DNA of 24,348 nucleotides, taken from a virus. Location of the stretch: IMG/VR virus record IMGVR_UViG_3300030329_000650, positions 10,150 through 34,497 of that record. One strand, given 5' to 3'. Of this stretch, positions 16,392 through 18,275 are shown one piece after another. Numbering within the stretch: the stretch's first letter is position 1; each line of letters starts with the position of its first letter. The notes under the pieces were generated by a model that saw nothing but the letters and a program-made list of their open reading frames with translations, was not told the origin of the DNA and made no database searches. Position numbers and translations under genes: made by a program.

Positions 16392-16819
16392 ATCTTGAAA
16401 CTTTACAAAGTATGTGGGAGAAAGACTCACAGATTGATCCAGATAATTTACACACAGAATCATTAAAGGTACCATCATTACATGCTAAGTACCATGATAT
16501 GTTTAATAATTTCTTGTTGCTAAGAAAGAAAGCAGAGCAACAAAGAAAGAATATTAGGCATGAGAGATATGAATATTATTCTGGGAAAGCAGACCCAGAG
16601 GTATATCAGAAAGATCCTTTTGGAAAGAAGATAAGAGATAAGGATACTATGACTAAGTATCTTGATGCAGATGAGAAATTAAGGGATATAAATCTTAAAA
16701 TAGACTACTATGAAACTCTCCTAAATTATATTGAGAGCATCCTAAAACAGATAAGTAATCGGACTTATCAGATTAAGAATGCAATCGAGTGGCAGAAATT
16801 CATTGCTGGTTATGGTTGA
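16388..16819 (+). CDS. uvsY: Recombination mediator UvsY
   Basis: A 143-aa protein, close to T4 UvsY (137 aa). It loads UvsX recombinase onto gp32-covered single-stranded DNA. Shared features with T4 are the N-terminal LETLQSMWEKDSQID, a central coiled helix with YEYYSGKADPEVY (T4 YYSGRGD), then a segment matching T4 SADKDV (here DADEKL), and the C-terminal YQIKNAIEWQKFIAG. The protein is mostly helical and charged. It overlaps both neighbours by a few bases and is followed by uvsW, the usual cyanophage order. Confidence 0.93.
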   Translation: MNLETLQSMWEKDSQIDPDNLHTESLKVPSLHAKYHDMFNNFLLLRKKAEQQRKNIRHERYEYYSGKADPEVYQKDPFGKKIRDKDTMTKYLDADEKLRDINLKIDYYETLLNYIESILKQISNRTYQIKNAIEWQKFIAGYG

Positions 16820-18275
16820 TCTTGAAATTGAGAAAAAGAATGAAGTCTTTCTTCGGGTTAAAGCAGAACCCCACATATACCAAGAACTTTCAGATCATTT
16901 TACATTTGAGGTACCTGGGGCCAAGTTCATGCCACAGTATCGCAATAAGCACTGGGATGGGAAAATTCGTCTTTTCTCAACCCACACAGGGGAAATATAC
17001 GTTGGTCTATTAGATAAGATAACTGCTTTTTGTAAGAATTACGGATACGATTATAAATTTTTAGATAACAAATATTTTGGTATACCATTTCAAGTTGATG
17101 AGATGGTGTCGATGGAAGGTGTTAAAGATTATATGACATCTATATCCCATCATACTCCACGTGAATACCAGATAGAGGGAGTGTACGACGCTTTAAGACA
17201 TCAAAGAAGATTATTGATATCACCAACTGCTTCTGGAAAATCGTTGATGATTTACGCTCTAGTGAGGTACTACACAAGTAAAGGGCAAAGAAGTCTTGTA
17301 GTTGTCCCAACGACATCTCTCGTAGAGCAGATGTATAAAGATTTTGAAGAGTATGGTTGGGATGCTGAGACATACTGTCACAGAATATACGCAGGCCGAG
17401 AGAAGGAGACATCATGTCCAGTCACCATAACAACGTGGCAATCTATCTATAAGTTACCAAGGAAGTACTTTGAAGAGTTTAATGTAGTAGTAGGAGATGA
17501 AGCACATCAATTTAAATCTAAATCATTAGTTCAAATCATGACTAAGTTGCATACTGCAAAGTATCGATTTGGTTTTACTGGTACCCTGGATGGAACTCAA
17601 ACACATAAGTGGGTATTGGAAGGATTGTTTGGTCCAGCATATAAAGTGACAAGGACTAAAGAATTAATGGAGAAAGGTCAATTAGCAAAACTCGACATTA
17701 CATGTCTCGTTTTAAGGCATCCGCCTATTAAATTTGAAACATATGAAGATGAAATACAATATCTTATACAACATGAACAAAGAAATAACTTCTTAAAGAA
17801 CCTAGCATTAGATCAAAAAGGTAATACCCTATTACTTTATAGTAGGGTAGAGTCACATGGAGAAGTGTTATATAATTTAATAAATAATAATAAGTCAGCA
17901 TCTCGTAAAATATTTTTTATTCACGGTGGGGTGTCTGCTGATGACCGTGAAAAAGTTCGATCCATTACGGAGCAAGAAAAAAATGCTATCATCATTGCGT
18001 CTTACGGTACTTTCAGTACTGGCATTAACATTAAGCGGTTGCACAACGTTATTTTCGCCAGCCCCTCCAAGTCCAGAGTTAGAAATCTCCAATCCATTGG
18101 TAGAGTCCTTAGAAAAGGAAGAGGCAAAGTAAAAGCAATGCTGTATGATATTGCGGATGACTGTACACATCAGTCCCGCAAGAATTATACTTTAAATCAT
18201 TTAATTGAACGGATCAAAACTTACAACGAAGAACAATTCAATTATGAGATAATCTCAATCAAGTTAAAAAAATAA
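16812..18275 (+). CDS. uvsW: DNA/RNA helicase UvsW
   Basis: A 487-aa SF2 helicase that unwinds D-loops, R-loops and stalled forks and helps switch replication from origin to recombination mode. The N-terminal domain (EVFLRVKAEPHIYQELSDHF, RNKHWDGKIRL) matches T4 UvsW. Motif I is SPTASGKS (137-144) and motif II is DEAH (229-232). GFTGTLDG comes next, then motif V IIASYGTFSTGINIK and motif VI QSIGRVLRKGRG. I chose ATG 16812 because it aligns with the T4 start and overlaps the uvsY stop by only eight bases. An upstream in-frame ATG at 16779 would add 11 residues. The motif V-VI DNA also carries a second frame (see 17941-18132), and codons there become richer in C-ending forms. Confidence 0.95.
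   Translation: MVDLEIEKKNEVFLRVKAEPHIYQELSDHFTFEVPGAKFMPQYRNKHWDGKIRLFSTHTGEIYVGLLDKITAFCKNYGYDYKFLDNKYFGIPFQVDEMVSMEGVKDYMTSISHHTPREYQIEGVYDALRHQRRLLISPTASGKSLMIYALVRYYTSKGQRSLVVVPTTSLVEQMYKDFEEYGWDAETYCHRIYAGREKETSCPVTITTWQSIYKLPRKYFEEFNVVVGDEAHQFKSKSLVQIMTKLHTAKYRFGFTGTLDGTQTHKWVLEGLFGPAYKVTRTKELMEKGQLAKLDITCLVLRHPPIKFETYEDEIQYLIQHEQRNNFLKNLALDQKGNTLLLYSRVESHGEVLYNLINNNKSASRKIFFIHGGVSADDREKVRSITEQEKNAIIIASYGTFSTGINIKRLHNVIFASPSKSRVRNLQSIGRVLRKGRGKVKAMLYDIADDCTHQSRKNYTLNHLIERIKTYNEEQFNYEIISIKLKK
17879..17886 (+). promoter_or_regulatory. Late-promoter-like octamer inside uvsW (AATAAATA)
   Basis: This is the same octamer found before gp18 and gp22. Here it lies inside uvsW, 54 bases before the ATG of the nested lipoprotein frame. 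In AT-rich DNA such an octamer can occur by chance, so the support is its position relative to that frame. Confidence 0.3.
17941..18132 (+). CDS. Nested lipoprotein in uvsW (+1 frame), candidate outer-membrane spanin
   Basis: A 63-aa frame wholly inside uvsW. It has a textbook lipoprotein signal: basic n-region (VKKFDPLRSKKK), hydrophobic core (LRLTVLSVLALT) and lipobox LSGC with the lipidated Cys at residue 34. The mature part would be 30 residues, starting CTTLFSPAPPSPELEISNP and ending acidic/basic. Small size, a Pro-containing mature part and an embedded position are hallmarks of Rz1-type outer-membrane spanins. A superinfection-exclusion lipoprotein is the alternative. ATG 17941 has GGTGGGG about nine bases upstream. 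An in-frame ATG at 17983 (49 aa, Cys20) has GGAG ten bases upstream and gives a more standard signal length. No inner-membrane partner was found nearby. Confidence 0.55.
   Translation: MTVKKFDPLRSKKKMLSSLRLTVLSVLALTLSGCTTLFSPAPPSPELEISNPLVESLEKEEAK

Follow-up and report, generated by a model that had tools for sequence, protein, structure and literature searches.

The question raised by this locus is whether the helicase gene uvsW of an uncultured virus encodes a second, hidden protein. The window, meaning the whole stretch of 24,348 nucleotides that was analysed, comes from a 34.5-kb virus record. Its uvsW product matches the Pfam families UvsW_N (2.6e-15) and Helicase_C (1.2e-10) as well as the PHROG DNA helicase family (7e-118), helicase motifs V and VI are intact, and the homologous gene is named uvsW in annotated isolate records. 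In the +1 frame of this gene, positions 17941-18132 read MTVKKFDPLRSKKKMLSSLRLTVLSVLALTLSGCTTLFSPAPPSPELEISNPLVESLEKEEAK followed by a stop, with a Cys codon at 18040-18042. A sequence-only reading of the window had described a 63-codon ORF with the lipobox LSGC at this place, which is borne out by translation. The ribosome-binding-like GGTGGGG and GGAG are indeed present before ATG 17941 and ATG 17983, respectively, and AATAAATA lies 54 bases before 17941. The reported shift of uvsW towards C-ending codons is real too, with C at the third position in 31% of codons 388-451 versus 9% of codons 301-387. Comparison with related sequences makes it very probable that 17983-18132 is a real and independently initiated overlapping gene, lying in the +1 frame over the uvsW codons for motifs V-VI (Table 1). 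This confidence covers the reality of the gene, not its role.

Table 1. Features of the uvsW locus and of the very probable gene in its +1 frame (window coordinates)
Feature	Position	Strand	Basis
uvsW, T4-like UvsW helicase (498 aa), contains the ORF	16779..18275	+	Pfam, PHROG, isolate annotation
Very probable overprinted lipoprotein gene, +1 frame, 49 codons + stop, MLSSLRLTVLSVLALTLSGCTTLFSPAPPSPELEISNPLVESLEKEEAK	17983..18132	+	start set by conservation
Predicted signal peptide, 19 residues; n-region MLSSLR, hydrophobic core LTVLSVLALT	17983..18039	+	
Lipobox LSGC, Cys codon 18040-18042 (TGC)	18031..18042	+	
Predicted mature lipoprotein, 30 aa; Ser/Thr/Pro-rich N-terminal half, charged C-terminal half	18040..18129	+	
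Stop codon TAA of the overprinted ORF	18130-18132	+	
Shine-Dalgarno-like GGAG, 10 nt before ATG 17983	17969..17972	+	conserved in style A
Late-promoter-like AATAAATA inside uvsW, upstream of the ORF	17879..17886	+	conserved ATA codon, match to NATAAATA
5' extension of the 63-aa form; not conserved, probably outside the gene	17941..17982	+	in-frame stops in many relatives
uvsW codon 420 CGG (Arg)	18036..18038	+	Arg 76/77 style A, Asn 169/210 style B

Within the window alone, the lipobox ORF is only mildly unusual. When all window genes were shuffled among synonymous codons, a mean of 0.12 lipobox-like ORFs was expected and one was observed, a contrast too weak to decide the matter; chance is excluded by the comparative data across relatives, not by these shuffles. 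For the comparison, candidate ORFs were sought in six frames with a filter demanding an ATG, a positive n-region, an uncharged hydrophobic core, a lipobox and 20 or more residues counted from the Cys onwards. A first, stricter rule, under which the 14 residues nearest the Cys had to be uncharged, excluded the window ORF itself and was replaced. The window form passes the later filter, with the positively charged n-region, uncharged core and lipobox of a lipoprotein signal, and the 49-aa form would be split at the lipobox into MLSSLRLTVLSVLALTLSG and CTTLFSPAPPSPELEISNPLVESLEKEEAK.

Relatives were fetched by UvsW protein similarity, using the whole protein, its C-terminal part and, from three diverged relatives, the N-terminal 318-320 residues. 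With the addition of 12 isolate, single-cell or single-particle records, the sample comprised 300 distinct uvsW genes. In 77 of these the +1 frame has the Cys together with a lipobox (style A), 210 are without the Cys (style B), and 13 have the Cys without a lipobox; as three of the scans were seeded from Cys-bearing genes, the 26% belonging to style A does not represent a frequency in the population. Hits retrieved with the +1 peptide itself did not enter the statistics, since they had been selected for similarity to the ORF. Four of the 12 added records (L164, L169, L170 and L172) were also matched by the +1-frame search, and only L164 is style A. As style A is defined by the Cys and the lipobox residues, neither feature is counted as further evidence.

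The consensus UvsW proteins of the two styles are nearly identical over motifs V-VI, and the style-A codons are therefore not explained by the UvsW protein. The main fixed difference between the proteins is at codon 420, which is Arg (CGG in most) in 76/77 style-A genes versus Asn in 169/210 of style B; in the +1 frame this CGG contributes to the SG of the lipobox. The backgrounds on which style A is found differ by up to 44% of their bases. On the background tree this style needs 15 changes, compared with 62 when the labels are shuffled, indicating that style A is partly inherited and partly exchanged or lost. The lipobox forms of the 77 style-A relatives are mainly LSGC, SSGC, LNGC and LGGC, and related lipoproteins read MKKTLLLLPVMALSVLGLTLSG, MKTTVLLSLATALSALVLISSG or MKLLKTMALLSPLMGLLVLVLTLNG up to the Cys. 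The mature part is 30 residues long in 59/77 style-A genes (range 23-31), with a mean of 3.5 Pro in 29 residues and 40% Ser+Thr+Pro.

Third codon positions of uvsW fall on second codon positions of the +1 frame, where an A gives a polar or charged residue or a stop. Changes were counted in the core codons 404-418, only at sites where an A-ending codon is possible. An A-ending codon was involved in 1/66 inferred synonymous changes in style A, and in 222/447 in style B. The spectrum of changes with and without A, 1:65 in style A versus 222:225 in style B, gives p 8e-17, although Fisher p-values overstate independence here and below, because the genes share ancestry and this segment moves by recombination from one background to another. 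Independent pairs gave 1:50 and 149:181, respectively, and in the flanks (codons 301-403 and 452-490) the spectrum is the same in both styles. After thinning to 28 style-A lineages more than 12% apart, the third bases were T189 C66 G30 A1; those of thinned style B were T802 C311 A309 G40. An acidic residue within 18 aa before the Cys position is absent in 77/77 style-A genes and in 48/210 of style B, and a stop within 22 residues before that position occurs in 0/77 and 51/210, respectively. The mere openness of the +1 frame was dropped as evidence, since codon style brings it about and many style-B genes show it.

A drop in synonymous rate had been predicted over the ORF and did not appear: synonymous change was 1.48x expectation in close relatives and 1.01x in broad pairs. 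A signal peptide can accept T or C, and often G, as the middle base of its codons, which leaves the rate unreduced. The constraint, as read from these alignments, is in the kind of synonymous change tolerated and not in its rate. Selection on the second frame, as expected of an overlapping gene, is seen in the change spectrum, the start and the Shine-Dalgarno-like site; a reduced synonymous rate in the older frame, which is usual but not strictly defining for such genes, was not found.

An ATG lies 18-26 aa before the Cys position in 76/77 style-A genes versus 103/210 of style B, the sole style-A exception being AG-345-F15 (L164), with no ATG near the Cys. The AAT codon for Asn402, which creates the ATG, is used 60:3 in style A versus 82:90 in style B (p 1e-12). 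The start was taken as the nearest ATG giving K or R in the n-region, a rule that was fixed before GGAG was counted and is still a choice. The conserved ATG is 17983, located 19 residues before the Cys, or one 20, 22 or 25 residues before it, and the starts in use differ by lineage (-19, -22 or -25 from the Cys). GGAG or GAGG precedes the chosen start in 61/74 style-A genes, compared with 246/2615 (9%) of the ATGs inside style-A uvsW genes. Correctly spaced copies were found in 23/26 genes starting at -19, 34/39 at -22 and 4/4 at -25, while matching places in style B carry the motif in 26/210 (-19) and 14/210 (-22). Nothing else points as strongly to independent translation as this tie between GGAG/GAGG and the start in use, which also sets the start in the window at ATG 17983, giving 49 aa. 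Of the two ATGs proposed by the sequence-only reading, then, 17983 stands with its conserved GGAG, whereas 17941 is not conserved; the 63-aa start was rejected, the 14 codons upstream often hitting stops in relatives.

The same segment might encode no protein at all, if style A were a DNA haplotype spread by gene conversion that looks like a lipoprotein gene by chance. Style-A genes differ from each other by a mean of 0.187 over codons 404-440 (0.257 within style B) where codons 9-360 differ by 0.32-0.45, half-converted haplotypes exist (L140 and L137), and the local codon style alone often leaves the +1 frame open, all consistent with such spread. A founder haplotype is nevertheless insufficient, because the counted changes occurred after any common origin, and the single A-involving change among 66 is left unexplained. 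The start and the GGAG shift together between -19, -22 and -25 across lineages, and acidic residues are absent before the Cys in style A, which makes a haplotype without a product improbable. Still less probable, to the point of being remote, is that the codon constraint serves another element, either an RNA structure or the antisense ORF at 17895-18170 on the minus strand. One antisense frame does open upon the loss of A-ending codons (76/77, codons 402-421), but over codons 402-448 it is open in 31/77 style-A genes compared with 68/77 for the +1 frame. Neither an antisense nor an RNA element needs a lipobox, an ATG or a GGAG, and an Rfam search of the window gave no match. The overprinted lipoprotein gene accordingly remains the preferred reading of the segment.

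The filter was run over 397 loci with 1.64 Mb of partly redundant cyanophage DNA. It matched solely at this uvsW site, in 69/77 style-A genes and 0/210 of style B; 15 ORFs classed as 'other' proved by their sequence to be the same uvsW site in loci discarded as duplicates. A looser scan of a 179-kb style-A genome with psbA found the uvsW +1 ORF to be the only credible lipoprotein ORF. Among cultured phages, Prochlorococcus phage P-SSM7 encodes the gene at GU071103.1 121310-121471, beginning with MKLIKLLSPVMVLSVLGLTLSGC and located behind GGAGG; its Cys is at 121376, and TTG 121304 is a possible alternative start. A loose scan of P-SSM7 that included GTG and TTG starts gave further candidates, mostly antisense and without a comparable signal peptide. 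The ORF is also carried by the uncultured virus records AG-345-O18, AG-341-P01, AG-345-F15 and AG-345-P14, AG-345 being an extracellular sort plate (PMC6122165). Most cultured cyanophages examined are without it, and no relatives of the lipoprotein were found in the genome_contigs collection. The gene is unannotated in all records examined, including P-SSM7. In the literature library searched, no paper joins uvsW with an overlapping gene, and none of the titles found for cyanophage spanins and lipoproteins concerns a lipoprotein embedded in uvsW.

Some relatives (L119, L129-L131, L360 and AG-345-D19) keep the core and have lost the Cys, suggesting that the gene can decay and is dispensable. 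In AG-345-D19 (L493), L118 and L201 the core is kept and the lipobox has become LSVF, these likely being decaying copies; L118 and L201 have a Cys a few residues downstream of the altered lipobox. In L140 and L137 a style-A core is followed by style-B-like sequence without the Cys, with an apparent recombination boundary within the ORF.

The late promoter consensus of cyanophages is NATAAATA (PMC2984593). The match AATAAATA is placed to transcribe the ORF and, from its sequence, is a putative promoter. Codon 368 of uvsW, encoding Ile, is ATA in 278/280 genes, the median share of ATA at Ile sites being 0.20. ATAAATA occurs inside uvsW in 76/77 style-A and 202/210 style-B genes (278/287 in all). 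As it is equally conserved in uvsW genes without the ORF, the element may serve downstream genes, and it is probably a conserved late promoter for these. In style A, it would place the lipoprotein ORF first on the late transcript. The window has eight ATAAATA sites, all on the + strand (1823, 5480, 10129, 11649, 14781, 14922, 17880 and 23527), a count as expected by chance; four of the eight are 23-45 nt before gene starts.

We propose that the gene arose by overprinting in the +1 frame of the uvsW codons for helicase motifs V-VI. A late transcript from the internal NATAAATA promoter would carry the ORF, and its product would pass through Sec, receive a lipid at Cys20 and be cleaved by signal peptidase II. 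The resulting 30-residue lipoprotein would be left anchored in the envelope, probably in the outer membrane. As a single role, that of a late envelope (lysis) factor working like an o-spanin is the likeliest, with superinfection exclusion the next best candidate. Of the earlier proposal of a hidden late lysis or exclusion gene, the overprinted lipoprotein gene over motifs V-VI and the late-promoter-like element are retained, but no neighbouring i-spanin and no Rz1 or Rz match was found.

A lysis lipoprotein, o-spanin-like or resembling the colicin-type bacteriocin release proteins, would be made late, reach the outer membrane and help to breach it. This is a role for the gene and not an alternative to its being real, and we assign it tentatively, at less than even confidence. 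Small lipoproteins embedded in the frame of another gene are typical of o-spanins (PMC6139136), and the predicted product would be one. The late-promoter-like element upstream, the short Ser/Thr/Pro-rich mature part and the standing of the ORF as the only credible lipoprotein ORF in the 179-kb style-A genome all point the same way. The sequence has the lipoprotein signal and short Pro-containing periplasmic part of an o-spanin, like the Rz1-type proteins lambda Rz1 and T4 pseT.2, which are small outer-membrane-type lipoproteins. Lambda Rz1 likewise lies in another frame inside a longer gene, Rz, and late expression is likely in both cases. Unlike Rz1, however, the containing gene is a DNA helicase and not an i-spanin, and the mature part is about 30 aa instead of 40, less Pro-rich and without a match to PF06085. 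The neighbours of the ORF are uvsY, a T4-GC-139 gene and gp55, with no i-spanin among them. Whole-genome searches gave no match to Rz (PF03245; four genomes were searched for this family) or Rz1 (PF06085), which argues against the o-spanin-like role. An i-spanin candidate in genome G001 (119021-119296) was rejected because it lies out of frame within a structural gene at least 1993 aa long. Weak PHROG matches to 'Rz-like spanin' (best E 0.0018, in one relative) favour the role, but it is mostly the signal peptide that drives them, and for other members the matches are to different lipoproteins. Furthermore, most relatives do not carry the ORF and must be able to lyse in its absence.

The mature parts of the colicin lysis lipoproteins are about 28-30 aa, and the predicted product resembles these bacteriocin release proteins in its very short mature part; they are separate plasmid genes, however, and no homology was found. 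Small phage lipoproteins commonly act in superinfection exclusion, and a lipoprotein that blocks adsorption or DNA entry of competing phages by exclusion or receptor masking, like T5 Llp and Cor, is conceivable here though rather unlikely. The patchy distribution, the loss and the exchange between backgrounds (15 changes on the tree) would suit such a competition factor, and T5 Llp and Cor are likewise small phage-encoded envelope lipoproteins of patchy distribution, an envelope location being predicted here. The window form has a weak match to the Cor family (E 0.43), which is not significant homology, and Llp was not found by family searches. The overlapping location and the promoter position, unlike in T5 Llp and Cor, suggest late expression, which is less favourable to early protection.

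Taken as one claim, that of a new marine-cyanophage lysis gene encoding an overprinted o-spanin-like lipoprotein, expressed from a conserved late promoter in uvsW and passed among lineages as a roughly 150-bp cassette, the proposal should be regarded as doubtful. If true, such a gene may account for some of what is missing from the lysis machinery so far described for cyanophages. Although few ocean viruses have been studied as thoroughly as the T4-like cyanophages, the lipoprotein gene was missed by annotation, and it is a candidate for an envelope function (lysis or exclusion) in abundant ocean viruses. A second protein drawn from the catalytic motifs of a helicase is a striking case of overprinting. 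The product resembles those of overprinted viral genes generally in being born in a second frame and in its Ser-, Pro-, Glu- and Lys-rich, disordered-type composition, but differs in that its ORF sits on top of catalytic helicase motifs and moves from one phage background to another. Scans of synonymous rate can miss overlapping genes whose product needs merely a hydrophobic stretch, and a scan by the type of synonymous change could reveal more of them.

Two further places in the window have overlapping frames. At 797-1069 and 819-1091 there are almost fully overlapping 90-aa ORFs in different frames, the second of which is very hydrophobic and has a stop that overlaps the ATG of the next gene. 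The strongest shortage of synonymous change in uvsW is at codons 127-202 (17157-17384), with 0.37x expectation in the close clade (z -15) and 0.67x in broad pairs, and this stretch is overlain by a minus-strand ORF at 17140-17415.
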